Positions 25,356 to 63,557 of a stretch of 64,000 bases of DNA are shown piece by piece. Both the position numbers and the translations under genes were made by a program. Numbering within the stretch: position 1 is the first letter of the stretch; each line of letters starts with the position of its first letter. The DNA comes from Antedon bifida (Eukaryota; Echinodermata; Crinoidea; Comatulida; Antedonidae), in the NCBI GenBank assembly GCA_963402885.1, contig OY727099.1, positions 5,568,001-5,632,000 on the forward strand. The letters are read 5' to 3'. Under the pieces are notes generated by a model. It did no database searches and was not told the origin of the DNA. It saw nothing but the letters and a program-made list of their open reading frames with translations.

Positions 25356-25383
25356 GTGCTTTTGCATTATTCTGATAACCTCA

Positions 25384-25786: not shown

Positions 25787-25801
25787 CGTACTGAAGTGTG
25801 T

Positions 25802-25961: not shown

Positions 25962-25975
25962 AGAGAAGAATATTA

Positions 25976-32470: not shown

Positions 32471-32518
32471 GTGCTTTTGCATTATTCTGATAACCTCAAA
32501 CGTACTGAAAAGTGTGTA

Positions 32519-32661
32519 AAGCTAGTCTGTCTACTATCAAACTAGTTTGACAAAAACAGTGTGATGTGCCAAATAGGCGGAGATATGCCTAAACATGGTA
32601 ATGATATGACATCATCATGTCCATACATTTTCACATAAAATTTGATAGTGTAGACAAAGCT
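32519..32661. mobile_element. M1 MITE, orthologous to the copy at 25802
   Basis: Same flanks and interior as 25802-25961 but with a short deletion (TGGGCACATCACAT region) in the right half. Confidence 0.8.
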
Positions 32662-32997
32662 TAGAGAAGAATATTATTTAAAAAAAAGATTTCCGTGATA
32701 AAAATACGGTATATAACAAAAGACTGTTTATATTCAACTTTTTAAAGTTCATATCAATAATATTCGTTTATAACAACAGATTTAACCAATTCATTAGATA
32801 ATCATTTTTGCAACCAAATAGTACGGTGCACTTTTTCATCAATAATCGAAAGTATAATGTTTCAAACAATCAAAACTATTACGCGTTTATCTATATTACG
32901 ACAACAGTTATTGTTTAGTAATGATTGGTATTAGTTTCTATATTATGACAATGTACGATAACAGTTATCGATCAGTTATCGATCAGTTATCGGTCAC
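32662..32997. other. Rest of the B/D segmental duplication
   Basis: Matches 26164-26380 (AAGATTTCCGTGAT to the CAATCAAAACTATTACGCGTT stretch). It ends in a short TCGATCAGTTA repeat at 32965-32995, directly next to the truncated receptor E. Confidence 0.7.
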
Positions 32998-35636: not shown

Positions 35637-35929
35637 CTGTAAAAGACGAGGAAAACTCTCTGGATTATAATTTTAGAATAGTGTAAATACGAAAACATAT
35701 TTTATCAATATAAACACCACATACTTCTACAGCAGTAAAGTGAATTTGAAGTCTATTATTTTATCAAAGATCCAGTTTTGATATGCAAATAATGTTTTAA
35801 AAAAACAATTACTATAGGAAGAGTTGTCGACAGTGATGAATAAAAACATACATTAATTTGGGATATATTTTTGACATAAACAGCCATCAGCTTTAATGAA
35901 AAATGTAAACGAAAATAAATAAATGTGTA

Positions 35930-37044: not shown

Positions 37045-40000
37045 TTATGTTAGCGTCATCTCGGTAACACCAATACTACTTGACATGTGCTGATTATGGA
37101 ACTTTCTCCAAGCAGCATTGACCTAAGAATAAAATGTAATGTCAATTCATTAGGAATAAATGTTGAAAATGCAGCAAGACCATCGACCAACCGACCGACA
37201 TAGTGAGCTGAGAGCACGCGACCAAAAACGATCGACGATTTTAAACCATTCAAAGACAACATTATAGCAATAAAATAGAAATTAAAGGAACTTTCTTTTC
37301 ATTAAATTTAAATTTTTAATGAAGTTATTCTGCATGGATATTTACCTCTTTGCTAAGAAAACACTGTGTAAACCATATGAGAAAACCTTGTAAAGACGTT
37401 GATATAACAAACAGATATTGTAAAATGATGTTGTCATCAAACAGAGTCAAAATACCAAAAACCCACGTCAGTCCAACAACGGGGCTTAGAAGAAGAATTC
37501 TGTAAAAAAGGTTCCTACGAAAAAAAAACCAGATTACTCAACTTAACGTTATAAACTAAAGAATAGTTCAGGCCTATGGCTACTTTTGAAATATAGGTCA
37601 TATAATAACAATTATTAATAGTCCCGAAACAAGAGATTTAGTACTTGAGAAGTCTATACAAGGAGCTAAAGTCAATTTTGAAAATAATAATGAAGTAATA
37701 ATTATGTATGTTACCGAATAGTAGTTAAGCTCACCGAATATTCTTAAGGTTACTTTTATTCTCATCAGATTGGTGAGGCATACGAGCTTTTGTGAACGCC
37801 ACATACCCAATTATACTCAGTTGGAAAGAAACAACCTAGATTCAAATTAAGAAAACAGTTTTGTTGATCATTTTATAGTGGCGATCATTTTATAGTAATA
37901 ATATTTTCTTCATTTTTTAACAGTAACAATGCCATACTAACCACTATTGATATGATAACAGGGACAATGAATGTCCACGTGACCCCAGTGTCAATATTTA
38001 ACCAGCAACTACAATAAATAAAGTACGTTTTAATATTAGGTTAAAATATTCAAATGTTGTTGTTTTGAGTTTATTTTGTACTCTGTCTCTAAATGAGCAA
38101 CGAATAAGCCTACATTTCGTCATAATTGTATTTAATAAGAAGGATTTCATAGCATAGAATATAAACAAACGATGCATTTTGACAAAAAGGGCCAAGGTGT
38201 AAATATAAGAGAACAAGTCCATATCTTACTATAATGTTGATTATAACACTGATCTTCAGAATATGGTAAATTGATACAAACGCCAATGTGTTCATAAATG
38301 CTAAAAAGCTTTATTATTTTACCTCTTAGACGCGTAGTTCTCTCTCGTCACAGAGACTGTAACAGCGACTACTAGAAGAGGAAATATCCACCCAAATAAT
38401 CTACAAAATCGAAACCTTTTCTCTGAATCATGGAATACATATTGGATCGACATGTACATGTCAGAAGAGAGAATAGTCATCCAGGTGAATGCAACAATTA
38501 AACAGTAATGGAGGCAAGAGGCGACGATGGAACAGGCGATCTGAAGAAGAGCAAAACGCATTGATAGGTAAATAAACACATAATAGAAAAAGGTAAATAA
38601 ATAAGAATTGCTAATTTAAAAAAATCTTAGACTTAGACTATTTAAACCGATCTAGACGATTAGTTTCGTAGTATATTTAACTTAAAATAGCAGCAGTAAT
38701 ACTGATAATAACTTAAAATATTCTTTCCAGTTCTAAGGTCTGGGGTTCAGTCCTGAACTAGTGCCAGGGTTGTGACTCTTTCAACTCCACGCCCTAAGCC
38801 TCAAATGAGACTTAGTTTATAAGCATGATAAAGTATTAAATATATTTATCCATCCTGTAATTGGCGAGTCACTCGCTGTTGGATGCGTATGAAATTTAAA
38901 AACAAATATGTTTACCTTATTTTCAATTTCAAAGACAATGGCAGTAAATAAACAGTTCGACAAAAACAGAGACGCAACCAGATGACCCAGTATGCTGTAA
39001 CGAAGTGATCTTCTTAAGTCGCTACAAAGAAATATTAGTGTTTGTATAATACACTGACACAACTGAACGAGTTGTTTGCAACGTTTTGTACGTAACGGGT
39101 TGTACGTAAAAGTGTGTACGTAAACTTTTTAAGCAAATATTTTTTAAACGCAAACTTTTTCCACTTTTGTACGTAAACTTCTTACGTATTATTTTTCAAA
39201 CTTAAACTAATCTACGTAACATGTGTTACGTAACATTTTTTACGCGAATAAAAATAATTCATCAAAACCTTAAACATGTGATGGTTCCAAAAGTCAACAG
39301 TAGAAATATACTTGAAGAGAACAAGCCTATATACGTGATCACATGAAGACCGACGTCATCAGTTATTATCTCCTCCTAAAAAAATGTCAAATAAATTAAA
39401 TGTCTTGTTAACAACATCGTCTAAAGTATTTTATGCTTTATTTCTTTGTGTATAGTCGTGATTTGTTAAGTTTAGACTCACATATGTTGTTAATTATGTT
39501 TCTGATGAAACACTTTTGAACATGTATTACAGTATTTTGGTCACTGACAGTTTGCGATGAGAGATCAAATTTCAATGATCAGTACTAAGTAATATAAAAT
39601 GAAGAAGTATAACAAGTATAAGATAATCAACCTACCTCTTTAGTTCTCATAAGGACAGCAAATGTTGTTAAGTGGTCACACGAACATGTTACTCCTTCTG
39701 TATGGAAATCTTTAGATATTGTAACACAGCCTTTGGTTGACCATTCCCTGAAATTATTATATGTATTGAGCTTACGACGTGTAATAATCGATAATCAATA
39801 ATTATCGATTATTATTAATAATAATCGATAATTATTAATAATAATTGATAATTATTAATAGTAATTGATAATTAGTAATAATAATCGATAATTATAAATA
39901 ATAATCGATAATTATTAATAATCGATAATTATTAATAATCGATAATTATTAATAATCGATAATTACTAATAATCGATAATTATTAATAACGATAGAACAT

Positions 40001-43000
40001 TGTTAGATAATAATCCAGGGAAGGGGAACTTTTATTTTTATTATTTATTTATTTTTGCTGTTTTATTTCAAATTGTTCAACTATCTACTATTGTTCAAAA
40101 AGCACACGATAGAGATGTAAGACTTACCAAGGGTTTATTTCTTCGTTGATAAACGAGCAGACAGGTTCTACTGTTGTTATATTTTCATCATTATTAATCT
40201 ATTGTGTTGAATAAATAGAGCTTAGATTAAAAAAAGGCCAATCTAAAGTCAATTTGTTAAAGATGTATATGAAATTGTAAGTTCTTTAAACTATTGATTG
40301 ATGTTTACCCGTCATAACCTCACTATTGCAATAATCGTATTAATAAGTACAAGTTACCTGTGTAGGTGGGTATATTATTGTTGTTTTTACTTTTGAAATA
40401 ATGTTACCATTAGCATCGTAGTACACTACAGAGACTAAATCGCTTGCAACAGACGTATCCTCATCGGAAAACCTGTGAAGTTTGAGAGAAATTAAAGTCA
40501 ATATAAAACTGAAAAACATATCTAGGTGTGGAAGTGAAGTCTGAATATTTTGCATAAAGTAAGATCCGATCACCGTATGCAGTAGCCACAACCAGCACCA
40601 AAACCATCACCACAGCCACAACCATAACCAGCACCACCACAACCAAAACCATAACCAGCACCAACACCAACACCAACACCACCACCAAGGTTTCTTAAAC
40701 TGCAATAGACCACCATTTATTTTGATGCAATGTTACTTACGTCAAAAGTGGCAGGACGTATTCCAATTCCATCACAGACACAATAACACTACCTGATCCT
40801 GCGCAAAAATATATTGAACACAATAAGTAATAGATAGATGGTAATAGAATAGTGAAATAGTTTAGGTCCTCATTTTCAACTATATCCCTAAAGCAAACAT
40901 TTAAAACTAGGCTCCTTGCTTCTTAAAAGCTTCACTTACGAACAAACTGTAAATACGCAAGTAGGCCTATTCCTACAAAAAGTTTAGCTATATAACATTA
41001 CCGCTTGTATCGCTGTCTGTTTGTAAAGAAAACGAAATGCTGTCCGGATCAGTTGTTATATATGTCAGGTTAATATCAGATGATGATGATTTGATAAGCA
41101 AACCCTCTAAAAAAAGTATACAGTTTTGCAAAACTATTAGCATTACGTGACAAAGTTGATGTAGTAAATAAATGAATACATTTAATAAATAAACAAATGA
41201 ACTTATGTTCCTATAAACAGCGGAATATGATACGAAGACAACTTTTTTTTCATTTCATAGAGCAACTTGCCAATTAGCATATGGCTAAACTATTAATGTA
41301 TCGTGCTTACAAACTAAGTCTATTTTGAGGCATAAGGAGTGGAGTTTAAAGAGTCGTGCAATAGCTAAGGATTGAACTCTGGACATTGGGATTGGAAGGC
41401 AAGCACATTAACCACCAAGCTAGCTCCACTATTATAAACATCTAAAACACTAAATTTAAAATGGTTTACCTCCTGTGTCCGTTGTAAAGTACTTCATTTC
41501 GTCATCTTCGAGTTGTTGAAGTTCTTCTAATTGCTGGGAATTTAAATCGTCAAGAAGTTGCACCAAATCTATGGAAATTCAATTTTGTTAACATCTGATC
41601 GTTCGAGGATCTTTTAAACTCATTTACAAGTGTAGAATCCTACTATGAAGCAAGGCAATCTATCAACATGATGCAAGCTCCGGAGAAAAGAGTTTTTTCT
41701 GTCTGCCACGAAATACCAACAGTACTGTTACTGTCGCAGCCAGATATAAGATCAAACGACTGTTACGAGTTCCTATCCTTTCAGGGCCAGCTCAGCGTGA
41801 TTCCCTTGATAAAGCAATCCTCTTTTGTAACAAGCATGCATCCAATTCAATCATGCAACAAATAATAATCATAGTGATCACATCAGAATAGACTTACCAA
41901 GTTCATTCGGTGTTGATTGGGTCTGCTGACTGATGGACCAATGTTTTGATACGTAATCATCTTCGAAACAAAACCAAAAAAATAATTACTATGTTAAATA
42001 AAAATGGCATATTTAAACAAATTAAATTGGTATAATGTGTAAAAATGTAAATAAAATAGTAATTTTAAAAATATTCTGGTACTGAAAACATTCACAAAAT
42101 GTGTAGTCTATACTTACTCAAAGAAACATAGTAGATATACGTGACGTGCCCATATATGGATGATAATGACATATCACTACTATATTTGGGCATATCACTA
42201 CTATATTTGGGCATATCATCACTATATTTGGGCACATCACATTTGTTGTCAAACTAGTTTGATAGTGTAGATAGAGAACCATACCTCTTGATTCATTCAC
42301 ACACACTACGCTTGCAATCCCTCCATCACAAATAAATTCTCTGTTAAATCCGGTATGCATACACTCGCTAAGTGTTTTTGGGTTTCCTGCAACACCACAC
42401 GACATGAATTCAACCAGCGGTTGAAGCTCATTATAAGGCGCGAACTGTTTTGAATCACGGGTATGTGATACAATATCTTTGAATCCGGCTTGGTAACAAG
42501 CGACTATAGCGTCCACCGATCCCCACTTTTTGCCGCATAAAGACCTCCATTTTCCGTCATAAAATAGCTCCACACGTCCTTCATTTGGTACCTTTCCATT
42601 AATCAATCTGATATCTGAGAAAAATGTGTACAAAATGGTTTTCTGAGCTTATAAAGGTTGTTTCTGACTGTAGGACGCAACGCAAAGACGTACGAGCAAT
42701 GCAAGGAATCTGACCAATCACAAGCGATGGACTATTCGAACTGTTGCTTGTCATTGGGCAACTAGCTTGCGATGCTCTTACGACCTGGGAAGCAATAAAT
42801 AAAATCTTCTAACAATTACAGTGTTAGTTCGCTTTTGACATTCCTTGATATTTCGTTACTTTGCAGCATTTTTTTATGACGGCATTTTTTGTTTTTTGTA
42901 CAGTAGATAAAATATAAGATAATTGAATAAACTATAATTTTATTTATATAATAATTATTATTTCTCTATTTACCTAAAATAGAATTACTACAGTTCACAC

Positions 43001-43970
43001 CATCCGCTAATCCATCCAAAAGACAACTATCGCTTATATTTCCCCAGCCGTTGTTTTCGCATTTCAATACATTGCTTTCATATCCTAAACACATTACATT
43101 GTCTAACCCAAACGTGGTGTTAGTGATGTATTCCGACTCGTAGCGGATGTAATCAAAACAGACTCGGTACCCGAGTGAGAGGCACACAACTGCGCATGCT
43201 CTGAATCGAAATTTATCATCACCATTACTGAATGAATTTATTAGACCATAGCTTCCATTAAAATATACTTGGATATAACCTTCATTCGGGGCGGATCCAC
43301 CTGAAACAATCATATCTGAAATATAAATTAGAAAAGTCGGAAAAAAATACGAACAACGATGAATATATTATGCCTAAGGCCGCCATCATAATTATGTAAC
43401 AATGACATAAAGTTAGAAAATGCCATTACTTAATGTAATGAATCTAGGTTTATGCTTAAATCATATTTGTATTCAAAATGCTGATGTTAATTGCCTAACT
43501 GGTTAAAAAGAAGATATCTCTTGCCGTTTCGTGGTCTTCAGAACACACAATTCTATTATCCTTACCAAATATGGTAAGGGCATGCAAAGAGAGTCGGTAC
43601 TGAGCGTTATGAAATCCTTTATTCAGAAATGATTCGTATTACGGTATCCAATACAACACGAAGTTACTAGACTGTTTTGTACATCATACATACCTCCATC
43701 TTTGGGTTCGATGGCTCCACTATGAACACAAACATCTATAAAAGATTTAAATTACCGATTTTTTAATTTATCTTTTGTAATTTTAAAATTACTGTTTACA
43801 AAAAAAAACCAATATTGACATTCAATTTCAGAATTGATTTTCCTGTATCATAATTTACAATGGTTAATTTATACAACAAAAAACACGTTTTCAAACAATT
43901 ACAACTAGGCTAAATATAAAATGCATAGGATCTACTTACATATAAAAAGTAGAATAATATATTTCTTCAT
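37045..43970 (-). CDS. SRCR adhesion-type GPCR 1, complete, 735 aa
   Basis: Eighteen coding exons: 43970-43940, 43735-43694, 43315-42974, 42614-42285, 41960-41898, 41568-41470, 41106-41002, 40792-40741, 40472-40358, 40198-40128, 39747-39636, 39375-39269, 39021-38916, 38540-38323, 38008-37942, 37835-37735, 37514-37346, 37122-37045. They sum to 2208 bp with all phases agreeing. Order: signal peptide (MKKYIILLFIYVCVHSG), SRCR domain 1, SRCR domain 2 (RLINGKVPNEGRVELFYDG), acidic linker, GAIN-like stalk, GPS site (WSTKGC..CSCDHLTTFAVLM; predicted cleavage between L and T), then seven membrane segments (for example PVVGLTWVFGIL in TM6). SRCR domain 1 lacks the usual first-cysteine motif. The short tail ends TEMTLT. 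A surface receptor; ligand unknown. Confidence 0.92.
37175..37230. mobile_element. GACC-type SINE-like fragment
   Basis: ACCAACCGACCGACATAGTG then AGCTGAGAGCACGCGACCAAAAA, the same end as the elements at 25976 and 28880. In the last intron of adhesion receptor 1. Confidence 0.45.
39782..39999. repeat. AT-rich palindromic satellite
   Basis: About a dozen units of ATAATCGATAATTATTA (17-21 bp), each nearly self-complementary around ATCGAT. It lies in the intron between exons 10 and 11 of adhesion receptor 1. Confidence 0.85.
40580..40685. repeat. (CCAACA/CCATCA)n low-complexity tract
   Basis: Degenerate CCA-rich triplet and hexamer repeat in the intron between exons 8 and 9 of adhesion receptor 1. 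The Val/Leu-rich minus-strand frame over it is spurious. Confidence 0.85.
41331..41440 (-). mobile_element. Probable tRNA-related SINE fragment
   Basis: On the minus strand, TAGCTTGGTGGTTAATGTGC resembles an A box and GAGTTCAATCC a B box, about 45 nt apart. It lies in the intron between exons 6 and 7 of adhesion receptor 1. Confidence 0.5.
41640..41800. repeat. Dispersed repeat shared with 61381-61500 (inverted)
   Basis: AGGCAATCTA.CAACATGATG, GCTCCGGAGA.AAAGAGTTT and CTGTCGCAGCCAGA-type blocks appear inverted at 61400-61500 as GTCGCAGCCATAGATAAACTC, CTCCGGAGCATCATGTT and AGATTGCCTTGG. Both copies are in introns of adhesion receptor genes. Confidence 0.6.
42139..42279. mobile_element. M1 MITE with internal tandem expansion
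   Basis: Right end AAACTAGTTTGATAGTGTAG is intact; the left end is lost. The interior has three units of CATATCACTACTATATTTGGG. It ends six bases before the splice donor of the second SRCR exon (42285). Confidence 0.7.
42648..42792. mobile_element. MITE related to 2132-2340 and 50725-50866
   Basis: GGACGCAACGCAAAGACGTA at the left and a diverged inverse at the right; the centre ACCAATCACAAGCGATGGA faces TGTCATTGGGC. Shares its centre with 50725-50866. Confidence 0.55.
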
Positions 43971-44310
43971 GTTCAACCTAAAATCTGCAAAACAATGAAA
44001 TATATTTATATTATATTATTTTGACTCACGCGTAGAAACTGTGTCCTATCGAGTAATCGAATTTTAGAAATAAAAACAAATCGAAAATGTATAGAATATA
44101 AAGCATGTTTAATATCTAACACGGACCATTTATTTGATATTAAACAAATGAAGTAAAGGACGAACAACATGCATTATTGTTTTGTGCACGTTCGTATTGA
44201 CGTTCAAATTGTTTGTAATATTTATTGCTATCCATAAAATACACAATACAATACGTTATACTATAGTTTGAAATTAACAAAATCATACAAAAACAATAAT
44301 AATTAAACAG

Positions 44311-44982
44311 TTATGGAATAGCAGAGGATAACCCTTTAAGCTGGGAAGCTTGTTATGGAATAGCAGAGGATAACCCTTTAAGATGGGAAGCTTGTTATGG
44401 AATAGCAGAGGATAACCCTTTAAGCTGGGAAGCTTGTTATGGAATAGCAGAGGATAACCCTTTAAGATGGGAAGCTTGTTATGGAATAGCAGAGGATAAC
44501 CCTTTAAGCTGGGAAGCTTGTTATGGAATAGCAGAGGATAACCCTTTAAGCTGGGAAGCTTGTTATGGAATAGCAGAGGACAACCCTTTAAGCTGGGAAG
44601 CTTGTTATGGAATAGCAGAGGATAACCCTTTAAGCTGGGAAGCTTGTTATGGAATAGCAGAGGATAACCCTTTAAGCTGGGAAGCTTGTTATGGAATAGC
44701 AGAGGATAACCCTTTAAGCTGGGAAGCTTGTTATGGAATAGCAGAGGATAACCCTTTAAGCTGGGAAGCTTGTTATGGAATAGCAGAGGATAACCCTTTA
44801 AGCTGGGAAGCTTGTTATGGAATAGCAGAGGACAACCCTTTAAGCTGGGAAGCTTGTTATGGAATAGCAGAGGATAACCCTTTAAGCTGGGAAGCTTGTT
44901 ATGGAATAGCAGAGGACAACCCTTTAAGCTGGGAAGCTTGTTATGGAATAGCAGAGGATAACCCTTTAAGATGGGAAGCTTG
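44311..44982. repeat. 42-bp satellite, exactly 16 units
   Basis: The unit is TTATGGAATAGCAGAGGATA plus ACCCTTTAAGCTGGGAAGCTTG. Units start every 42 bp from 44311 to 44941 without any indel. Only two positions vary: C/A before TGGGAAG (A in units 2, 4 and 16) and GATA/GACA (GACA in units 7, 13 and 15). It lies between adhesion receptors 1 and 2. Confidence 0.95.
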
Positions 44983-46363
44983 TTTCAGAAGGGGTCCTCG
45001 ACAATTATTAAACATCTAAACATTTTTAAAAAAAATAGAAAGATATAATTTAGTTATATACTACAATTTACATTACTTTAATTATTAGATGAAATAACAA
45101 TAGAGTATTTTATTTTATTTATTTTACAAATGAATATACAGTACCCTTATTATTAGTTCGAAAAAATTATTTATATTACAAAATAGTTTACCAAAATACT
45201 AAGTCATTTTATATTATTACTTATTAAAAAAATATAAATTGTAATTTTAATATAGTTAACATTTTCAATATAGTTAAAATGAGAAGTATATCAGAATACA
45301 TTTGTCAGCATTATTAGTTTTACTAGAATATAAAGGCCTTGATTTTAGAATAAAAGGCATAAAGAACTCATATCTGAATGCTTCTACAACTTGGAAATAA
45401 TATGAAATAAAGAATAAACTGCTTACCTTTAATTCATAAAGAAATAATATAAATTGCTTCAATCAATAGGTTACAATAGCTTTCTAATGCATACTACTGT
45501 ATAATTCACAATATACATTTACGAAATTCTTCTAAATAATGCGTATAATAATGCCTGTAGAGACTTCACATCCCAGAAGCAGCTTTATTTCCTCCTGTGT
45601 GCGATAATACATTCAGCTTGTTTTCTAGTGCGAGTGTACACAAACCAATGTAATTAACTTAATTGAACCAGCCACAGAATGGTATAGCCAATATGTTTAG
45701 TTAATTACATAATATGTATACCTGTTAATTTTAATTACAAGATAGAGGTTTTCTTTCAAAACTATTTAAATTAATGCATACTTTATTAAAATGACATTGA
45801 CGACAATATCTAAATCTAATCTACTTATTTGCGCTAGATTATGTAATCTAACAAATGTATTGTTTGGTTTTCTTGGTTACAATCCAATTATAATGGCATC
45901 ATCAAATAATATTTTAGTATAACTTTTAATAACACGAGGCATGAATTGCAATGTGTAGGCATGAAAATCAATCTTTATTCACGCAATTTTTCTTTTTTTT
46001 TTCTTCGTTTTAAAATTAAAAAAGCTTTTTTCTTATTAATATTAGTGGTTATGAGACACATTTCATCAAAATGATAACACCATTACATTACCAATAATGA
46101 CACACAATTGCAATTTGATTAATTTAAATTGTTACATTCATTATTTTTTACTTCAAAATATGTGTATCAAGATAAATATTCGTTAATTATTTTGATAATA
46201 AAAAACCTTAAAAAATCTTTTTTATTTATAAATTTAAGTTGTTTCCATTCTTTGATAGTTCGTCTGATTGCACGAACGCGAAATTCCTTTGCGACTGCGC
46301 AATAGGTTTGATATCCAAAGTTTATTTTGTTAGGTCAATAGGAGGCGGTGTTCATATACTCTG
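44983..46363. other. Intergenic region between adhesion receptors 1 and 2
   Basis: Strongly AT-rich, no supported gene. It contains the promoter side of receptor 1 only if the array is upstream of its transcription start, and the 3' UTR of receptor 2 near 46200-46360. Confidence 0.45.
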
Positions 46364-49300
46364 CTATTCCGAAGATGTGTAAACGCTGTTTGACATGTGC
46401 TGCATTTTGAATTTCTTCCATGCTGATTTAACCTACGAAACAACCAATTCAATTGCTATAATTAGCATAAAATATTGGTTCATATTAAAAATGTTCACGT
46501 CATCATGACGTAAACAACGGATCTATTTTATTGAATAAGTACAGTTGAAGGATCCCAACTAAAAGGAAACCTTGTCTCACTTCTTAACTAATAAGTAATT
46601 ATCCAGCGTACTGTTTTAAAATATGAGAAGTGTGTATAGGTATGGCCTACACAGTAATTTGCTTTAACCTCTCTCACCTCTTTGCTTAGAAAACACTGAG
46701 TACACCAGATCAAAAATCCTTGAAAAGATGACGAAAAAACAAACAAGTATTGTAACACGATGCTGTTGTTAAAAAGTAGAAAAATACCGAAGATCCAGGT
46801 TAACCCAACTGCTGGCGTCAGAAGAAGGATCCTATACAACAGTGTTCTAAAATTAAATAAACATGGTGTTGAAAAAGTAAAAAGTTCAGTCTATCAATCT
46901 CTTATGTCGTTGTAGTTTTTCAGGAAAAGGTGTAACTCGCGCTCCCTTAGTTTATTGTGAGCTTTAAATAAAGGACGAATCATCGTACTTAGCAAGACAC
47001 AGTCAACTTCATTTCACAGATTACCTTATACGGAACTCTCATAATCATCATATAAATAATTGTTTTCTCAGAGGAGAGGACAGAACGAACTTAATAATAG
47101 TTAACCTTAACAAAAGAAACAATCGAATTTGTTTTGGATCAAAACAGCCTTTTTCCTGGATTACTTAGCTATAAAAAAAGAGTAGTGAATTGTTACCTTA
47201 TCTGCTGCAGTTTACTTCTCTCATCATCGTTCTGAATACTTTTTGATTTAGTGTACGCAACATACCCTACAACACTCAGTTGAACGGTTACAACCTGAAA
47301 GCCAAGTTAACCAGTGTAAATGTAATACCTACTAGTCAAATTGTAGGTCTAGACATTTTCCAAATCTTTCCAATAAATCAAAACGAAAGACAGTTAGTCA
47401 ACAATTTTTAAAATAGTATTTACCAATATTGTGAAAATAACTGGACCGATGAATGTCCACGTCACGCCATTGGCAGTGTTCAGCCAACAACTTAAAACAA
47501 AAAAAGGAAAATAGTTTAAAATAAACATCCCACACAACACAAACATGTACCCTTACCAACTATATTCTATCGCCAAATATAAACATTATCTATCTTGAAC
47601 TATTGTTACATTAATCAATATTGTAAATATGTAAAGTTGTTCATGTCGATTCCTCGGCTTGAAGCTCCAATGTGGTGAAGTAAGACGTTTGCAAAGTCTT
47701 ATGGTCTTTTTATTGAGATTACAATTAACGCTTTGAGAGGTCATGCTTAGCTAAAGTTTTAATACCTTTCAGATGCGTAGTGTTTACCACCAATAGAAAC
47801 GGTAATTATAACCAACAGCAGAGGAAATGCCCATCCAAATATTCTGAAAAATACAAATCTTCTTTCTGGATCCCAAAACGCATGTTGAATGCACATGTAC
47901 ATATCTGTAGACAAAATTGCCATCCACGAAAACGCCACCAACAGGGAGTAATGCAGACATGCTGCGATCAAAGAACAGACGACCTGCGATGCAAGTGATT
48001 TGATAATTAATAGAGATGTTGTAGTTTATTTGTGGTTTATTATAGTTAAATTACGTTTTAAACAGTTCATAATAAATCGTAACGTAAAGTATTGGTTGTT
48101 TCTTGCTCTTTACGGATTATAATTCTGATTATCTATCCGAATTCAGTAATATAGGCCTATACAGAAAACTAGGAATGTCAATTTTTAAGTTCGTAACCAG
48201 CCAAGCAACTCTCCTCCATTCCCCTCCAAAATACAATACAAATCCTCAGTTTTCTGATGTACAGTAACCGTAACTACTTACCCTGTTTGTTACGTTTAAT
48301 GACAGAAAAGAAAAACAAAAGTTTGTACACAGCAACGAGATAACCAAATGCCTTAACATCCTATACCGTCTGGATTTCCTAAGGTCACTAAAAAAATTAA
48401 AGTAAATTTACAACATTTCAAAATAGAAAATTATCATGTTTTGTTGACGTTTTTGGAAAATTCCAAGAAAAATCTGAAAATTTTCCGGGTTCTATTCAAC
48501 ACCAGCTTAACTTTTATACGTTTATCTCTATTTTATATTTAAAAAAAATGTTTCTCCAACCTGAGAAAACATATGATACACATTGTGAATATAAGAAACC
48601 CATTGGATATTGTCAACCCTGCATACGATAGTACTTCCATACCAACGGCAGCATCTTCGTCTGTTTTTGAAGTATCCTGAAAATGAACATTTCAATTAGT
48701 CTATCCATAGAGGTATACAATAAGCTTGAACGAACAGTGTGTATGGTAAAATACTGCGTACTTTAAAATATGGATAAGAAGCATTACAAAAAACAGAATG
48801 ATTGTGATTTGGATGTGTATCAACAACTTATACAATTACCAAGAACAAACATTCTGCTTTTCTATACAGTCATTTAGTTGTCAAAAAGGTAACTTAAGGC
48901 TCCCAACAACTATTTTTGTAGTCGTGCTTGCGGTTTACACCCAGTTTTATGTTCGTATAGTATAGGCTCTCACTACCGACACAACATTCAATCACTTGGA
49001 TTAGTTTAATCTGGCAGGGAGAAGAGTCTTCCCTTGATCAGGTGATCAATTTAATCGGTAGTGAAAACCTACTAAAAACAAAACAACCTTATGAGATGAG
49101 GAACGAAGGCATACCTCTTTAGTTTGCATAAGAATTGCAAACGTTGTCAGGTGGTTACATTGACATACTATTGGTTTAGTCTTAACATCTTCTGATAAAG
49201 TTTCACAACCTTCTTTTGACCAAGTGCTTAAACAAACAAGTAGAGTAATACTTTTATTATTAAAAATTGTAAGTAGCAACTTGGTGTGAACACGCTCCTA

Positions 49301-52300
49301 AATGTAGATATACTTGCATACGCATGACACTTACATAGGACTTGCGGATTCATCAATAAAAGAACAGATTGGTTCCCTGTTTGTAAGTTCTGTTTCCTCA
49401 GTTAGCTAAACAAAACACAGTTTCATTAATCAGCACGGAATACAGTAATCACCATTGATTCTTCTTTGTTGTTTTCATTTGTTTTACTTGGTAAAATTAT
49501 TGCAAAGACACAAAATAGTCCACAATTTGAAATACAGACTATGAACATTGATGATGATTGGTCTCTCTGCATTTTGCCAACTATTATTTCGACATGTCGC
49601 TTCTTATTTTGATCATTGGGGCCCTCGACAATACAATACAATACAAACAGTACAAAATACATTATCATAAACAAATAATTATAAAAAAACTACTATATTT
49701 ATATTAAAATTGTGATAAAATTTCTAGATTTCATAAAATTTAATAAGTAATGTTTTTAACACATCACTTAATATATAATTATTTTATTTACAATGTTAGG
49801 CATATAGTTGATCTATGTTTAATTGAACAAATCATTCATTACCTTCAATGTGGGGAAAACAAGTTTTATATTTGCATTTCTTGTATCATTTCGTCCATTA
49901 ACATAAACTGTTACAGATACAAGATCACTCACAACCTCCGAATTCGTAAGATCGCTACTAAATCTGAAACAAATTAAAACACAAATACTTTGACAAAGGA
50001 GGTAATTGTCCTGTGTTTATTTGAAAAGTTCTGTTTCTTTCGAAAGGGTGTGGGTGATAATTTTTGAAATAAAGCTAGATATTACCAAAACCCCTAGTTT
50101 TCCTTACTCAATTATTACTGTCTTATTACGAATACTTACGGTATTGACAAATTTACAGATATCTTGGCTGCAATTACTCCAATTGTTTCTTTAAATAATA
50201 AATAAAACTACAATTAGTCAAACCACGGACCTATTCAATCATGTAAAACGTATTACTGAACTGAGTTCTAGTTAGGGCCTCTATGGCAACAATTCTCACA
50301 TTCTCTTAAAAGCGCTTCGTATTTGTAAATTTTTACTTTTACTGCCTATAATAGCATGGCTGTTTTATTCTATGGTTATTCCAATCAAATAAGTACTCTA
50401 AACTAAACAGTGTTTAACCTTTGATACAATAACTTACCTTCCATATCTTTGTCCGATTCGAGAGCAAATTCGATTGCATTTGCTTCTCTTGTTATAGGAG
50501 TCAAATCAATCGTTGGGTTTGATGACTTAATGAGTACACCTGCTAATAATGTATTAAAACAAAATATTTTATAATTTTTTTTAACAACTGAGGTACTACT
50601 TCCGTCGAATCCATTGATCCTGCAGGAGTGGATACTGAATTTGCTTGTTGTGCATTTACCTTAGATGTTTCTATCTTTAAAATGTATATAAGTAACATGC
50701 CTAATGTTGAAAATGTCATAGATGTTAAGTTTGGTTCCCACTAGAACGTAACGCAAGGACGTAAACGCAACGCAAGCATGTTAACCAATGACAAGCGACA
50801 GTTCGAATAATCCATCGCTTGTGATTGGTCAATTCACTTGCGTTGCGTTACGTCCTTGTGTTGTGTATACTATTCCTAAAATGTATAATTAATTATTACC
50901 TGCTTTGTCATCCATCGTAAAATATTTCGATTCTCCGTCTGCTAGTTGATCCAATTCAGGATATTGCTCAGAAGTGATGTTATTAACGAGGGCAATGACA
51001 TCATTTGAAATAGCGGTATCTGGTCGTTTAAGGGGGAAAATAATTTGATAAGTATGTATGTTTAGATGTTCTGTAGTTAAAAAAAAAATTGTTGTAGAGA
51101 AATGGATTTTCTAAAATAATGACAATGAATAATAGAGATGAAAGCAAGTTGTTATTAATAATAAATTTAGCACTTTATTAAAACCAAAAGTTCCGCGAAG
51201 AAGGCATCGATAGGACCCTTTAACCGGCACCATAAGGAATGAAGGTCAATTATCTCGTATCTGAGTATCAAGTAAGTAAACAGAATGTCCTGACATTACT
51301 ACAGAAAGTCGTCTTTGTGTTAGATATTCATTCGCTTGCCCAAACAATACCCCTAAACTGAATCATACCTTGTGGATCGTCATTAGAACATCTGACACTA
51401 GCTGTTTCGGTGGCCGTGCAACCACCACGTCTGCCCACTCCGTTATGTAAACAATCAGTAAGTGCTGCCTCGGAACCAACACAATCCATCGAACTAACTA
51501 TTGATATTCCTTCTCCGTGATACGAACCCGTGTAGACTTCTATGACAGACGAGTAACCTAGCTGTCGACAAGCAACTGTCCCATCATCAATGTCCCATTC
51601 GTCATCACAAACCGCTTCCCATGCTCCGTTTTTGTCTTCTATCTCCACTCGACCTTCGTTGGGAGATGCTCCGTTTACTAGTCGAATATCTAGAAAAGTA
51701 ACTTTAATCTGTAAATAAATCTTAATTTTTATTTGATTATATATATATATTGGTATTTTGATATTATACTAATTGCTTCACTTACTAATACATAGCATTA
51801 TAAAATGTTCTGTGAAAAAAACAAAAAAAAACCAGATTTGATAATTATGAAATTGAATAAAAGTGTATCAATTTGATATTTTCTATATTATTTTTATCAG
51901 TGAGGCTAGTAATTACCTGTTAATGGTATCTATGAATATTTGTGTATGAAATTGAATAATTGTATCAATTCGATATTTGTTTATCAGAAGGCCAATAATT
52001 GACTGTTTAATGGTATGATGATATATTAACCAACAAAAGGAACACTTGTTGGTGGATGTTATAATAAAAGTAGTCTAGTTAATCAGGCCTCAATAAATAT
52101 AAGTACACCCTGATGATTAATTTGGAGTTTTATACAGTACATTTATGTATAATATTGGCAATACCTAGTGCTGTATTCATACACTGAACTGAAACTCTTC
52201 GAACACGCGGTGTATAACAATCATCCGATACATTTCCAAATTTTCCAACACCATTTGTACATTCACTCAAAGCATTTTCATACCCATTACAATCGACGTT

Positions 52301-55300
52301 ATCTGCAACCATGATACTACTACCAAGTCTGGCGTATCTGTCGAAATTATAACAGGATCTATAGTTTAAATACCGACATACGACTGAACAAGCCTTGAAG
52401 TTCCATCCATGTGAGCAGATTGTACCATAGGAACCATTGAAGTAGAGTTCAACAGTGCCTTCATGAGGTCCACTTCCGTCCACAAGGATGAGTTCTGAAT
52501 GAGCAAAATAAGAGCATGGTTAATACTATAAACTAGAAATAGTGCAAGCGAGTCCTGCAAGCAGATCTATGGACATACACTGTCCTCAAACAGCTATTTA
52601 AATAATACATATACTTAATTAGGTGATCATTTAGAATAAAATGATCACCTATTGTTATTGTATCAAATCTTTATTGTTATTATTGTTTCTGGGCACTATT
52701 TTGTGTAACAAATATCTAAAAAAGTTTAATGTCAATGATTACCAAAATTTCACAATGTCTTTCAAATACTTTAACTTAGTCCTAATAAGCTTTTCAGCGT
52801 GATCACTCATCCGTGACGTCATTTATACGCCATTTTGTGAAATCACATTATCAATCATATCTCCATAATTCATTATCACATATTAATGAAATTTATTACA
52901 CGTAAACTTCAGGTCAAGGGTAAAAATATTAGCAAGTAAAAACGCACGCGCACGTAGGGTCATGCGCGTAAAATCGCGCGTTCAAAATTTAAAAAGCTCA
53001 AAATTAAGTTTTAATCAATTTAGAGCATGAATTAGGCCATTTGCGTGTTTCAAAAAATTACTGCGCAAAAATGCGTTTTTGAGCGCGCGATTCTTAAAAA
53101 GCGTAAAAATACGATTTTTTTGTAGAAATCGCATTCTACTCACCATCCTTAGTACATTCACCGAATTTGAGTTCGTTCCGACTTAAAATAACGCTATACG
53201 AGCATGTTAAAAATGACAAAATGCGCACATTAATTTCACAAAAGTTCTGAAAATAGTGAAAAATATGTCTTTTTTAAAATGAAAATAACTCTTCAGAATG
53301 GACGATGACCCTTAAATTTTTTAACTTATTCGGGAAGCCATTGAGTTGTAGATATAAATGTATATACACATTAGACGTACAAAATGGTATTACGTCATCA
53401 CATGGCCACTTGAATTAAAAAATTAGGTTTTTTTCTCTTTTGTCATAGATTATCACATTCAACTGAGCGCATCTCGGTTATTTTGCGCCCGATTTTCGCT
53501 CAATTTTTTGTATATGATTGCTCATTTAATTATCTTTCTCATAAGTTGTCAACATTTTTATTTCGATGACGTCATCACGCGTAAAAATTTGAATAACCTA
53601 GGTCGTGTAATTTTAGCTACACCATACATTTGAATATCTAATAGCTCTTCAGAATTAAAGGTGACCTTGAAGATTATAACTTATTATGAAAGCTGTTGAA
53701 ATGTAGATATGAATTCATATAAAAATTAAGCCTATCGGATGTTGTGATGTTATCATATGGCCAGTTGAAGTTAAAACGTAGTTTTTATATTTCTTTAGTC
53801 GAAGTTATACAAATTTCAATGAGCGCGCATTGCGCTTCTACGTATCAAATTCTCTTCCAATCCTTATATTTATTTGCTCAATTCATTATCTTTCGAAATT
53901 GTCATCTTCGAGTTTATTTTGATAATTCCATCATACCAACAAATTTGAACATGATGTGGGTCCAGTAATTTCACCTATGCTACACTGTATATAGATATAC
54001 AGTATATACTGTACATAATAGGTACAACTCAGCACTATAAGTGTATATGCATCATGTCATAGGATGGCGTACATCAGCTTTTTACGATCGTATGTTAACG
54101 TACGTGCATGTTTAAAAAATGTTAATTTCATTAAAATGATAAAAATGATCACCTATAATTCGTCAAAGTGACGAATTAAATTCTAGTTGTACCTTGTGGT
54201 TCGGCGGTTACTAAAAAGAACCCAGTTTGACAGTCTGCAAGAACAATACGTTAAACTGAATAGAATGTTTCTACTTAAGTTAGTTGAATATGAATGTTTC
54301 TTTGTGCGAGTATTAAATACTATTTTGACAGTAATATCAGGCAGATCTCTCGCGTTGTATAATTCTCCATCATATTTTGTTCAAAATTCACCTAGAGAGT
54401 ACCAGAATTTGATTAAGCTCTGTCTATACTATCAAACTAGCTTGACAAAAAACGTGTGATATGCCCAAATATGGTAGTGATATAACATCATCATGTCTAT
54501 ATATGGGCAAATTATATTTTTCGTGATATAAAATTTGATAGTGTAGACAGGGCTTTAGGATCTCGAGAACACGATCGACCAAACAACCTCTAAACTGGTT
54601 ACGAATAGACAAAGTTGAATTATGAATTATTCTCGGTAGCTGTTTTGCGATCAAGACAGCGAAATCTCCAGAAATTCACTCTTCCCTAATACGATTGGAG
54701 TTTTTATAAATAATTAAATTAACTGGTGATAAAGATTTTGTTATTTATATTACCTGAACGAAATGTTGTAAAGACCAAAACAATCTTGAGCCAAATGTCA
54801 AGGAAGTACATACTAGAACATAAAATAAACGACACCACTCATTATTATACATTGTTTAAACATGCTAAAACCATTTTTGATGTTAAAGTTTGGAACCAAT
54901 TTCTCTACGAAACATCTAATGTATGTTTTGAACACTTGTGCACTTGATGTTTTCTTGTATAGGTATTTTTGTTGGTTTCAGTAAACTGAGCGAGTTAAAT
55001 CGAATTCTTTTAATACTTTATAGCACTTTAATTTTACCATATCTTTCTTATGGTAATATTGCATGGGGAGTCTTTATCAATAAATTCGAAACATTACGTC
55101 CTTGGCTAAGTACCGAAACGTCAAAATATGACTACCTATTTAGACTCCAGAAACGCGCATTGCGAATCTACGCAGGCGTTTCTTTTCAATCTCATACCAA
55201 AAGTCTTTTTCATAATTTTCGAATTCTTAATATATGATTTGAATAAACTCCAAATAGCTGCCTTTATGTACAGATTACACAAGCAAACACTGCCTTCACA

Positions 55301-56035
55301 TCAAAACAATTTATTAATTTCTACTTCTTCTGTTTACAATTATTCAACTAGATTTTCTGCCAACAATTTATATTCAATATCACCCTGCAATTCCCATCTT
55401 AGACTACATTCCATTTTTTATGCTGGCCCCAAATTATGGCAAATTATTTCCAATTTAAACTTAGATAAAACATTAGCAAATACCTTTAAGCGTGCGTTTA
55501 AACTGTCTCTGATCTCGATATATGGTGAGTAAATACCACTCTACTTATTTATTATTTACTATATATCATACAATATATATGAAACATGGAATAATTTCTT
55601 TTTTTGTATACTGCCTTACTTATTTATTTATTTATTTACTTATTTATTCAATGCCTTTATGTTTATTGTAATTATTATTATTGTCTAAGGTTGCTTATTA
55701 TCTTAAAGATCTATGCTTCGCACAGATCTTAATATATGCATCTTCCATGTACTAGGTTGTAGTAGTTGTGTAGTATGTGGAAAATAAATTGAAATTGAAA
55801 TTGAAATCACTCCGGAGAGACGCCTCTCATTCACACAAAGCACCCTGTTACAAAGTTCCAAATAAATTATCACATTATTTAATATCAAACAAGGCATACT
55901 AGTCCTAGTAGGTAATATCTCATTTACATTCAGTAGAAAAGCAGGTCTAAAAACAATGTTTTGCTAATATTTGAGGATAGCAAGGAGTAAACTTACCTGC
56001 GCTGCTAGTGTTACTCTGTACTCTCTCTCCAGCTT
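46364..56035 (-). CDS. SRCR adhesion-type GPCR 2, first exon not found
   Basis: Exons: 56035-55997, 52494-52165 (SRCR 1), 51689-51369 (SRCR 2), 51019-50900, 50542-50438, 50188-50140, 49963-49843, 49405-49335, 49226-49115, 48676-48561, 48387-48282, 47983-47766, 47490-47424, 47294-47197, 46846-46678, 46432-46364. Phases agree; 702 residues plus a missing signal-peptide exon. Each exon matches its partner in receptor 1, except that the small linker exon (41960-41898 there) has no counterpart. [25 protein letters not shown], cleavable HL/T. SRCR 2 is canonical (RLVNGASPNEGRVEIEDKNG; CDDEWDIDDGTVACRQLGY). Seven membrane segments follow; TM6 is [12 protein letters not shown]. The tail ends SVYTSSE. 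The start exon lies upstream of 56036, where a long foldback and a LINE occur. Confidence 0.9.
50725..50866. mobile_element. MITE with TTGCGTTACGTCC-type ends
   Basis: GTAACGCAAGGACGTAAACG at the left mirrored by TTGCGTTGCGTTACGTCCTT at the right; the centre is CAATGACAAGCGACAGTTCG. Same superfamily as 2132-2340, with GGTTCCCACTAG at its left edge. Confidence 0.7.
52619..54160. mobile_element. About 1.5-kb non-coding element with TAGGTGATCATTT ends
   Basis: Ends TAGGTGATCATTT and AAATGATCACCTA are inverted. Inside are at least two diverged units about 350 bp apart sharing CTCTTCAGAAT, TTGTAGATAT/ATGTAGATAT, TGAGCGC and a CATTATCTTTC-like stretch. It is rich in CGCG motifs (52940-53100). No coding capacity; lies in the intron before SRCR 1 of receptor 2. 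Confidence 0.65.
54416..54554. mobile_element. M1 MITE, full copy
   Basis: AGCTCTGTCTATACTATCAA to TTTGATAGTGTAGACAGGGC, with the usual ATGCCCAAATATGGTAGTGA interior. Confidence 0.85.
54930..55806 (+). mobile_element. LINE (CR1/Jockey-like) 3' fragment
   Basis: Two overlapping frames, related by one frameshift near 55235, encode the post-catalytic region of a reverse transcriptase: LILYSTLILPYLSYGNIAWG, LQKRALRIYAGV, then DLNKLQIAAFMYRLHKQTLP and GPKLWQIISNL. The 3' UTR ends at 55806 in TTGAAATTGAAATTGAAA, a typical LINE tail. Opposite in strand to the host receptor gene. Confidence 0.85.
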
Positions 56036-56515
56036 CTGGAACATAAACCATCCAGCAAATAAATGCCAAAACTTTTTATTATTATTATTATTATTGTAAT
56101 CTACCATCATCCTCAATTTATTAATGAAATTATCAAAAATGTATTGTACTAAGAAATAACCTTGAAAAGCTCTCTTCTTTAATACTGAAATTTGTCAGAA
56201 TCGTATTAAATGCTAAGCTGGTCGCACTTTCTAATTTATACAAGACAACAAAATATAGGCCTATACAAAGGAATACATCATCAATGCATGAAATGCACAT
56301 AAGTTGCATACGCCTTTTTCTTATTTGATGAAACTTAAGTTGCATAATAATAACATTATATCGATTTCACAATTGTATCTAATATACCTAATCAATCATT
56401 ATTGACGCACATTTCTCACTATCTAATTAATCTGCGCGATACAATTTTCATCAAGGAAAATAATGTCATTATGTGTAAATAACGCAACATGTGTGCAATT
56501 GCCTTGCGGTGGTAT

Positions 56516-57054
56516 TTTAGTTATCTAAATAAGTACGGTAATTACTATACTACTTACTACTATACCTAAAATTAAAGATGTAATATTGTCGCAATTAAAA
56601 CATTTCACATAGTTATTCAGTTTAACGATTTAATGATTGGAAAACAAAAAACAATATTTACCTGATAAACGTGAAAGGGAAAATAGTACATGGGTTAAAT
56701 TTAACTGTTAATGTTGTCTTTTTTATAGAATTTTTGCTTAATTTTTTTTCTTCAAAAGTGAATAAGTTTATTAGGTGGTGGTGGGGTGGCGGATACATCT
56801 TTGATCTTAATTATAAGAGTGAATCACGATCATTTAATTTATTTAACATTCATTATCAGAAGCTGTCTGTCTGTCCTCCTTGGTCAGTTGATAAGCGAAG
56901 AATAGGAGAAAAAGTATTTTTTGTTTTCCAATCATTAAATCGTTAAACTGAATAATTATGTGAAATGTTTTAATTGCGACAATATTACATCTTTAATTTT
57001 AGGTATAGTAGTAAGTAGTATAGTAATGACCGTATATATTTAGATAACTAAAAT
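56516..57054. mobile_element. Foldback element with about 138-bp arms
   Basis: 56516-56654 and 56917-57054 are near-perfect inverse complements (TTTTAGTTATCTAAATA; ACTATACTACTTACTACTAT; GATTTAATGATTGGAAAACA). The 260-bp loop has a plus-strand open frame (56671-56946, 91 aa) without recognised similarity. Confidence 0.85.
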
Positions 57055-57346
57055 TCATATATCTTAAAATACGGTAGCAATACAAGTATTATCTATAAAT
57101 AAATGCAAATTACTAGTTTCGTTCATCCTTTTAACATGCAAAATGGAGTGTTTGCTATTCAACATAGCTATGTTGTGGTTCCGTAGTTAAGGAGCGTCAG
57201 CTAATCAGAAAGCTCAATCGAAGTAGAATAATTAACTTATTGTTACATCATGAACTATTTAAAAAATACATTATAAATTAATATCTTCAAAATATATGAA
57301 TAAAATGTAGTAACTAAACGTTGATGTACAGTGATAGACAGTGTAA

Positions 57347-57463
57347 AGCTCTGTCTACACTATAAAACTTTAAGCGACAAAAAAAGTGTGATGTGCCCAT
57401 TAATATGGTAGTGATATGTCCGAATGTGGTAGTGATATGACATTACCATGTCCATATACATAT
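57347..57463. mobile_element. M1 MITE, right end lost
   Basis: AAGCTCTGTCTACACTATAA, then GTGATGTGCCCATTAATATGG; sequence departs from the family after CATGTCCATATACATA. Confidence 0.65.
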
Positions 57464-57684
57464 ATACCAGCCACTGATACTGATACTGATACCCAACCTT
57501 TTATATATATAAACACATCAGGCAAAGAACATTAATTCTAAACCGCCCGGTGATATACTGAAATTTAATTAATTAATTTCAAATAAAGATGAAGAAACAA
57601 AAACAAATATGGTGATGGTAGTGGTAGCGAGTGAAGTGAACCAACAAAAAATAACGTGACTTTTTTAAAATTAAAAATATTCTG

Positions 57685-60600: not shown

Positions 60601-63557
60601 TTGTCAACCCTGCATACGATAGTACTTCCATTCCAACGGCAGCATCTTCGTCTGTATTTGAAGTATCCTGAAATGATAACATTATTTATACAATGCATGC
60701 ATTTTACAAAGTGGATACTTTTCGATTGCCGGTGTGATCAAGCACTGTGTTGAATCTTGTATAATGCTGTCGGTTTGCGCCGAAATTGATCAGTTGATAA
60801 AATGGCAAACTCTACAACCGATCAGAACGATACAAAATGTATCAATCACTCCTTCGGAATTGCTTAGTTGTAATCGGTATGGGGGCACCAACCTGGCAGA
60901 CATAACAATCATGGTAAATAACGAACGAAGTCATACCTCTTTAGTTTGCATAAGAATCGCAAACGTTGTCAGGTGGTTACATTGACATTCTATTGGTTTA
61001 GTCTGAAAATCTTCTGATGTAGTTTCACAACCTTCTTTCGACCACGTGCTTAAACAAACAAGCAATACTTTTACTACATTATTTAACATTTGAAGTAACA
61101 ATATTATTATTTATTATTATTATTATTATTATTACTCCTAAACTCACTAATTATATTGTTGTTTCTGATTTGGTGTGACGCACAACACTTACATAGGGCT
61201 AACGGCTTCATCAATAAACGAACAGATTGGTTCCATATTTGTAAGTTCTGTTTCTTCACTTATCTAAACAAAAACAATATTATTGATCAGCCACAGAGGA
61301 TTTTCGTTGGTGCGTCAAACCAAGACAATAACATGACAATGAGTTCGCCTCGCCAATATAGGAACTCCTAACAGTCCTTTGATCTTATGTCTGGCTGCGA
61401 CAATTACCAACAGTACATACTGTACATGTTAAAGGGCGTGGAACTGATCATGTCGCAGCCATAGATAAACTCTTTGATCTCCGGAGCATCATGTTATTAG
61501 ATTGCCTTGGTCTAACTAATTAGGCCTATTTTCTATCATTGCACATAGTATTGTTTAATTTACAATGATATTCTGATATTAACATATATAATATTGAAAA
61601 AATTGATATACATAAATTGTTCGTAGGCCTATTTACCTTTAGTGTGGGAAAAACAAGTTTCACATTTGCATTTCTTGTATCATTTCGTCCATTAACATAA
61701 ATTGTTACAGATACAAGATCACTCACAACTTCAGAATTGGTAAGATCACTACTAAATCTGAAAAAACAAATAATTGTAAAATACAGATATCGATTGTCAA
61801 ATGACTGATAACAGGGATGATAGTGCGCACGTATGTAAATAGATTGTTTTTTAAGATGTTAATTTGTTTTAATAAATGGAGATATTAAAATGTAGTACCG
61901 CATATTTTTTACACCATGCTTGCGCTAAATTGAATACAAAGTATAAAGCTACGTTTCTTCTGATGGGGTGGGGGAGGGGAATGTGTTTATTTTGAAGAAA
62001 AAAAATGGAAATAACGGTAGATGTTACCATGAACTACTTCTTCTCTTTCACCAGTGACTATTTGGAATTATGAATAATTGGGTTGATTCTTATGTCGCCC
62101 TATATCACCAATGTATTGCAGAATCACCACTGTATTGCAGAATCACCACTGTATTGCAGAATCACCACTGTATTGCAGAATCATCACTGTATTTCAGAAT
62201 TACCACTGTATTGCAGAATCACCACTGTATTGCAGAATCATCACTGTATTGCAGAATCACCACTGTATTGCAGAATCACCACTGTGTTGCAGAATCACCA
62301 CTGTATTGCAGAATCACCACTGTATTGCAGAATCACCACTGTATTGCAGAGTCACCACTGTATTGCAGAATCATCACTGTGTTGCAGAATCACCACTGTG
62401 TTGCAGAATCACCACTGTGTTGCAGAATCACCACTGTGTTGCAGAATCATCACTGTGTTGCAGAATCACCACTGTGTTGCAGAATCATCACTGTATTGCA
62501 GAATCATCACTGTATCGCAAAATCATCACTGTATCGCAAAATCATCACTGTATCGCAGAATCACCACTGTATTGCAGAATCATCACTGTATTGCAGAATC
62601 ATCACTGTATTGCAGAATCATCACTGTGTTGCAGAATCACCACTGTATTGCAGAATCATCACTGTATTGCAAAATCATCACTGTATTGCAGAATCATCAC
62701 TGTATTGCAGAATCATCACTGTATTGCAGAATCACCACTGTGTTGCAGAATCATCACTGTATTGCAGAATCACCACTGTATTGCAGAATCACCACTGTGT
62801 TGCAGAATCACCACTGTATTGCAGAATCATCACTGTATTGCAGAATCATCACTGTATCGCAAAATCATCACTGTATCGCAGAATCACCACTGTATTGCAG
62901 AATCACCACTGTATTGCAGAATCATCACTGTATTGCAGAATCACCACTGTGTTGCAGAATCACCACTGTATTGCAGAATCATCACTGTATTGCAGAATCA
63001 TCACTGTATCGCAAAATCATCACTGTATTGCAGAATTACCACTTTATTGCAGAATCATCACTGTATTGCAGAATCATCACTGTATCGCAGAATCATCACT
63101 GTATCGCAGAATCATCACTGTGTTGCAGAATCATTGCCTACGATACTTGACGTATAATGCCACGTGGGGATACCGTACAGAGAATCGGGTGAATACTTAC
63201 GGTATTGACAAATTTACATATAGCAACTTGGCTGCAATTATTCCAATTGTTTCTAAGTAAACAAAAAAAATAAATCCTGTATAAACTGTTAACAACCTAG
63301 GTTGTTCTCTGGGTGAAGGACCAGGTTCTAATATTAGGGAAACAATTGGCCCACTATATTAAAACTCCAGTTTGGTTATTATATATTACATTAGGTTCGT
63401 TAGTTACTGAATTTAAAAATCGGCGATATAGGAACAATACAAACTAACTTACCATTCGTATCTTTTTCCGATTCGATTTCAAATGCAATTGCATTTTCTT
63501 CTCTTGTTATAGGAGTCAAATCAATCGTTGGACTTGATGACTTAATGAGTATACCCT
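57685..63557 (-). CDS. SRCR-type adhesion GPCR 3, 5'-partial
   Basis: Exons in view: 63557-63453, 63252-63201, 61757-61637, 61263-61193, 61048-60937, 60667-60552, 60408-60303, 59760-59543, 59414-59348, 58986-58889, 58312-58144, 57753-57685. All phases agree (1302 bp, 433 aa plus stop, after the first split codon). It is very close to receptor 2 from stalk to tail. [26 protein letters not shown]3-TM4 are almost identical to receptor 2; the tail ends SVDTSSE. Exon 63252-63201 is one codon longer than in receptor 2. SRCR exons are not seen up to 64000, so they are expected beyond the edge; their presence is inferred from the paralogues. Intron 61758-63200 holds the 19-bp satellite. Confidence 0.9.
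58405..58548. mobile_element. M1 MITE, full copy
   Basis: AAAGCTGTGTCTACACTATC to TTTGATAGTGTAAACAGAGC, in an intron of adhesion receptor 3. Confidence 0.8.
61381..61500. repeat. Inverted copy of the repeat at 41640-41800
   Basis: Shared blocks are listed under 41640-41800. In the intron between the exons ending at 61263 and 61637 of adhesion receptor 3. Confidence 0.6.
62112..63137. repeat. 19-bp satellite, 54 units without indels
   Basis: Unit TGTATTGCAGAATCACCAC, starting every 19 bp from 62112 to 63119. Variation is nearly all transitions (ATTG/GTTG/ATCG; CACCAC/CATCAC; CAG/CAA). Because 19 is not a multiple of 3 and the unit has no stop in any phase, all three plus frames are open for about 350 codons. 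These frames have no protein-like composition and are opposite to the host gene, so they are not called genes. Confidence 0.95.

Follow-up and report, generated by a model that had tools for sequence, protein, structure and literature searches.

A predicted tandem array of twin-SRCR adhesion receptor genes in the crinoid Antedon bifida

Gene models of the array

The window analyzed here is a stretch of 64,000 nucleotides from the crinoid Antedon bifida (contig C12, 5568001-5632000, in a genome of 315.6 Mb on 27 contigs); sequence past the window was also taken. From 37 kb through the window end and beyond, four tandem genes (A–D) could be modeled on the minus strand, each opening with a signal-peptide-like exon and continuing with a pair of SRCR exons, stalk exons, a GPS exon with the motif HLTTF and a seven-transmembrane (7TM) part. 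Internal splice sites were GT–AG, frames were open and phases consistent throughout, and exon order matched in all four genes. We consider it likely that each unit is one adhesion G-protein-coupled receptor (GPCR) gene, in which a 7tm_2 domain comes after a two-SRCR ectodomain carried on a GAIN/GPS stalk. Gene A (43970-37045) has 18 exons and encodes 737 amino acids; gene B (54811-46364) has 16 exons and encodes 709. Their parts are listed below in window positions, all on the minus strand (-).

Gene A
43970-43940, 43735-43694 (-): signal-peptide exons, MKKYIILLFIYVCVHSGAIEPKDG; phase-1 joins, GT–AG; signal peptide judged by eye
42974-43315 (-): SRCR1 exon, phase 1-1, lacking the first usual Cys; Pfam SRCR 4.5e-10
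42285-42614 (-): SRCR2 exon, phase 1-1, 6 Cys; Pfam SRCR 2.8e-16
41898-41960 (-): linker exon; gene model
41568-41470, 41106-41002, 40798-40741, 40472-40358, 40198-40128 (-): GAIN-like stalk exons; gene model, aligned with B–D
39636-39747 (-): GPS exon, ...CSCDHL/TTFAVLM; Pfam GPS 1.1e-8 in the joined protein
39375-39269, 39021-38916, 38540-38323, 38008-37942, 37835-37735, 37514-37346 (-): 7TM exons; 7tm_2 1.3e-40 in the joined protein
37045-37122 (-): tail exon with stop; gene model

Gene B
54754-54811 (-): start codon and signal-peptide-like exon, MYFLDIWLKIVLVFTTFRS; counterpart exons in C and D
52165-52494 (-): SRCR1 exon, 8 Cys including the extra pair; Pfam SRCR 7.7e-18
51369-51689 (-): SRCR2 exon, 6 Cys; Pfam SRCR 1.9e-23
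51019-50900, 50542-50438, 50188-50140, 49963-49843, 49405-49335 (-): GAIN-like stalk exons; gene model
49115-49226 (-): GPS exon; Pfam GPS 3.6e-10; 10 residues aligned with HLTNFAILMQ of human ADGRD1
48676-48561, 48387-48282, 47983-47766, 47490-47424, 47294-47197, 46846-46678 (-): 7TM exons; 7tm_2 2e-37 in the joined protein
46364-46432 (-): tail exon with stop; gene model
56166-56113, 56071-56036 (-): blocks upstream of gene B; by blastn both resemble the region upstream of C, and one also that upstream of D

Genes C and D match gene B exon by exon. Gene C (66490-57685, 16 exons, 713 amino acids) begins outside the window, where its first four exons lie, and gene D (78152-68400, 16 exons, 713 amino acids) follows gene C and lies wholly past the window.

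Gene C
66490-64092 (-): signal-peptide, SRCR1, SRCR2 and first stalk exons; past the window
63557-63453, 63252-63201, 61757-61637, 61263-61193 (-): GAIN-like stalk exons in the window; gene model
60937-61048 (-): GPS exon; gene model
60667-60552, 60408-60303, 59760-59543, 59414-59348, 58986-58889, 58312-58144, 57753-57685 (-): 7TM and tail exons; gene model

The original prediction was of a tandem trio, two members of which had twin SRCR domains, with a third gene of which the stalk-to-tail part was seen as it left the window. The array itself is retained, but the count rises to four genes, all four with twin SRCR exons; those of gene C lie at 65263-64925 and 64708-64388, starting 388 bases beyond the window. 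The models agreed with the predicted gene ends (37045, 46364) and with the exon edge at 63557. A start of gene B at 56035 was rejected because the signal-peptide-like exon, which has equivalents in C and D, begins at 54811. An ATG in the block upstream of gene B, read by eye, would meet a stop if spliced to that exon; a donor-like GTAAGT follows the 56036-56166 stretch in B and was not seen in C, and the blocks are a possible promoter or 5' untranslated region. Two minisatellites were also observed, one with a 19-bp unit and >50 copies in an intron of gene C (62058-63260), and one, lying between genes A and B, with a 42-bp unit and ~16 copies (44283-45019).

For domain assignment, Pfam was run on single exons and on the joined proteins of A and B, with C and D being read as exon models. 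SRCR exceeded the Pfam cut-off in all four SRCR exons of the window, and 7tm_2 was found on three transmembrane (TM) exons taken singly. Joined A gave 7tm_2 at 1.3e-40, SRCR at 3.2e-26 over two stretches and GPS at 1.1e-8; joined B gave SRCR at 5e-39 over two stretches, 7tm_2 at 2e-37 and GPS at 1.6e-9. In both, the 7tm_2 profile was covered from 4 to 250 of 250 and the GPS profile from 1 to 45 of 45, with GPS lying before TM1. The proposal that A and B each run from SRCR through SRCR, stalk and GPS to 7TM in a single phase-consistent model with GT–AG sites and open frames was thus upheld, as was the domain content expected of the joined translations (two SRCR stretches, GPS and a full 7tm_2). 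HLTTF is present at the GPS in A–D. The stalk exons before the GPS exon amount to ~156 codons and, judged by position, occupy the place expected of a GAIN domain. All introns of A–D from the signal peptide to the early stalk are in phase 1; with phase-1 introns on both sides, each SRCR exon therefore forms a symmetric module. Best PDB sequence matches were ADGRL3 (2.9e-43) and ADGRD1 (2.2e-40) for A, and ADGRD1 (3e-43) and ADGRL3 (5.1e-40) for B; as these two have similar scores and rank in opposite order for A and B, no vertebrate ADGR subfamily was assigned.

A fifth copy, genome-wide searches and neighboring genes

Searching with the SRCR1 exon of gene B gave a match at C1:6222424-6222756 that spans residues 2-108 of the 111; GPS and TM matches lie downstream of it on the same strand. 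This fifth gene, E, was modeled over 4.5 kb with eight exons (start, SRCR1, SRCR2, linker and four for the stalk), open and phase-consistent, and its exon order equals that of the array genes through all eight, to the stalk. The linker exon is present in gene A and, as a 48-nt exon, in the model of gene E; there is none in the models of B–D. Identity between E and A was 50% in SRCR1 and 55% in SRCR2, and between A and B 43% and 39%, respectively, so that by identity the five copies appear to form two groups, A+E and B+C+D. SRCR2 has 6 Cys in each of A–E, which is the group A count, and SRCR1 has 7 in A, 8 in B, 9 in C, 9 in D and 8 in E. An extra Cys pair in SRCR1, identified by eye, is common to A–E and presumably differs in position from that of group B, the group with eight Cys. 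With four tandem copies and gene E, the suggestion of a locally expanded class joining SRCR domains to a 7TM receptor was borne out.

A hidden Markov model (HMM) of the array SRCR domains recovered the 10 SRCR exons of A–E, which were its own source, and, at 20 other GPS loci, gave no match within the ~9.8 kb upstream (0/20). These loci were the best-scoring of 118 non-array loci, with a GPS exon match longer than that of the array genes, and are not a random sample, because 16 of the 20 lie in clusters on C16, C7 and C13. Big clusters of other GPS-bearing genes were observed at C16:5.96-6.27 Mb, C7:4.64-4.77 Mb and C13:12.73-12.76 Mb; no SRCR match was found ~9.8 kb upstream of the 16 loci examined within them. 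Genome-wide, there were 409 SRCR candidates, of which 150 were scored and all 150 matched, a number in keeping with an echinoderm, although a sponge or amphioxus would match it too; each list of this census covers up to 150 scored candidates, and further members may be missed. When the scored SRCR matches were compared by eye with GPS/7TM matches, only two candidate places were seen among them beyond the array and C1, both on C15 (17.91-17.93 and 21.03-21.05 Mb). Twelve SRCR matches at C15:17913577-17931753 (minus strand) lie between two weak TM6-7 matches on the same strand, at 17907260 (39% identity, E 1e-4) and 17936275 (37%, E 5e-6). Judged by these matches, the stretch is a candidate for an adhesion GPCR with many SRCR domains, but could also be an SRCR gene of its own.

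That the SRCR exons and the 7TM exons are separate neighboring genes, duplicated together, is in our view very improbable. Such an arrangement sits poorly with unbroken, phase-consistent open models in four array copies, with an identical order through the stalk in gene E on another contig, and with the lack of SRCR upstream of the 20 other GPS loci, non-random as that sample is; with one exon order repeated five times over two contigs, a misjoin of separate genes is unlikely. It would be helped by the ready movement of symmetric phase-1 SRCR exons between genes, and by the 409 SRCR candidates in the genome (150 scored). Against single receptor genes, SRCR2 exons in these genomic models could in principle run through the donor to a stop, and the GPS and 7TM parts of gene E are known as adjoining search matches only.

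Elsewhere in the window, a tandem group of single-exon rhodopsin-type GPCRs lies at 18902-35672 (minus strand), and Gln/Ser/Tyr- and RGG-rich open frames lie at 9692-12001 (minus strand). The latter frames resemble what we take to be a caprin-type C-terminus; Pfam gave no family in the two pieces tested.

18902-19930, 23872-24792, 29505-30437 (-): long open frames of rhodopsin-type GPCRs; 7tm_1 2.1e-24, 2.3e-23 and 6.5e-25
33118-33569, 34798-35672 (-): broken-looking rhodopsin-type GPCR pieces within the tandem group

Divergence among the copies

Divergence was estimated as pairwise nonsynonymous (dN) and synonymous (dS) values (NG86), with their ratio w taken without significance tests and, for B/C/D, from three sequences. 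Among B, C and D, the 7TM exons had dS of 0.17-0.24 and w of 0.09-0.18, SRCR2 had dS of 0.20-0.32 and w of 0.57-0.63, and SRCR1 had dS of 0.69-0.83 and w of 0.27-0.38; the greater divergence of SRCR1 thus reflects deeper synonymous divergence, not raised w. The short signal-peptide exon had dS of 0.52-0.69, the GPS exon w of 0.32-0.42 and the stalk w of 0.43-0.76. Between A and E, dN and dS were 0.43 and 1.23 for SRCR1, and 0.42 and 1.86 for SRCR2; between A and B, synonymous sites were saturated in both SRCR exons. The ratio was below 1 in every domain with estimable dS, and diversifying selection on SRCR was not seen at this pairwise level.

Sites at which two of B, C and D agree against the third numbered 130 for BC, 122 for BD and 105 for CD. 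Which pair is closest differs from exon to exon (heterogeneity p = 0.0001 over all sites, 0.0044 at third positions), and neighboring sites agree above chance over all sites (p = 0.0001). No blastn match was obtained in 28 of 45 intron pairs; the other 17 matched over 4-63% of the shorter intron. B, C and D look like exon mosaics and have probably exchanged exons, with gene conversion as the presumed cause. Exon-wise conversion with the 5' end left out would account for these patterns. In its full form, the proposal is that exon-limited conversion among B, C and D keeps the signaling half alike but bypasses the membrane-distal SRCR1 exon with its extra Cys pair, which goes on diverging. A single GPCR output would thereby be linked to an SRCR sensor that diverges, perhaps in company with a receptor of many SRCR domains on C15; as a whole, this remains tentative and rather doubtful.

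It is also possible, if unlikely, that no gene conversion took place and that B, C and D are recent duplicates whose introns turn over fast and whose exons evolve at uneven rates. The minisatellite in one gene C intron indicates that introns do turn over, and the adjacent-site test was non-significant at third positions (p = 0.61 for all exons, 0.16 for exons 2-15). Uneven rates would, on the other hand, have to account for a closest pair that differs among exons, at third positions as well, and for SRCR1 dS at three- to fourfold the level of the 7TM exons. The conversion proposal is weakened not only by the adjacent-site result but also in that exon heterogeneity could reflect lineage-specific selection or uneven rates, and in that w, untested for significance, would itself be distorted if conversion occurs, with the A/B SRCR comparison saturated.

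Possible role and relation to known receptors

The most likely function of the SRCR pair is to bind a ligand, be it microbial, matrix or cell-surface. Cleavage is predicted at the HL/T site from the GPS motif; ligand binding would then expose the tethered agonist TTFAILM directly after this site, which would in turn switch on G-protein signaling. Among vertebrate adhesion GPCRs, many have ligands in the matrix or on cell surfaces, and it is quite possible, although we put it at somewhat below an even chance, that the array receptors act in cell adhesion, in matrix sensing or in self-recognition and play no part in microbe recognition; pairwise dN/dS below 1 in the SRCR exons fits such a role. 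A link to immunity would be by analogy with SRCR domains elsewhere. In its favor, tandem expansion would suit receptors facing varied ligands, and excerpts of PMC10855680 tie raised SRCR expression in digestive tissues of nine species to immunity.

The closest PDB matches, human ADGRD1 and ADGRL3, likewise have a GPS, a tethered-agonist stretch and a 7TM domain. To our knowledge, neither has SRCR domains, and their ectodomains differ from those of A–D. A reading of the architecture as unreported is not supported: SRCR domains joined to adhesion GPCRs are not new, as the available portions of three papers indicate. Amphioxus adhesion GPCRs likewise carry SRCR in the N-terminus, as one of several novel domains (PMC2246102), the likeness being one of description, without domain order. 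In the sponge Amphimedon queenslandica, the ectodomains of adhesion GPCRs Aq712029 and Aq715659 have multiple SRCR repeats (PMC4302439), again likened by description and not by sequence. For an echinoderm, the starfish Acanthaster planci, 7tm_2 is among the top five domains co-occurring with SRCR (PMC10855680, Table 1); this is a table entry, and the main text is without the words GPCR and GPS. No SRCR-7TM gene was met in the passages covered of single papers on a ctenophore genome, on domain architecture and on a sponge transcriptome, nor in those of PMC6208332, and a tandem array of twin-SRCR receptor genes like this one was not noticed in the portion of the open-licence literature covered. 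A parallel is offered by placozoans, in which, according to extracts of PMC6321704, C-type-lectin adhesion GPCRs are expanded (28 of 36 CTLD receptors); there too a recognition-type module is fused to a secretin/adhesion GPCR, but the module is CTLD, not SRCR.

The array shows SRCR recognition modules cleanly and repeatedly coupled to a signaling receptor, and the one gene plan across copies makes the ectodomain and the tethered-agonist step separately testable. New details are the extra Cys pair of SRCR1 and the exon-mosaic look of B–D, in which the deepest synonymous divergence lies in SRCR1; this suggests gene conversion elsewhere in the genes and makes the array a potential example of a receptor family with exon-by-exon conversion.

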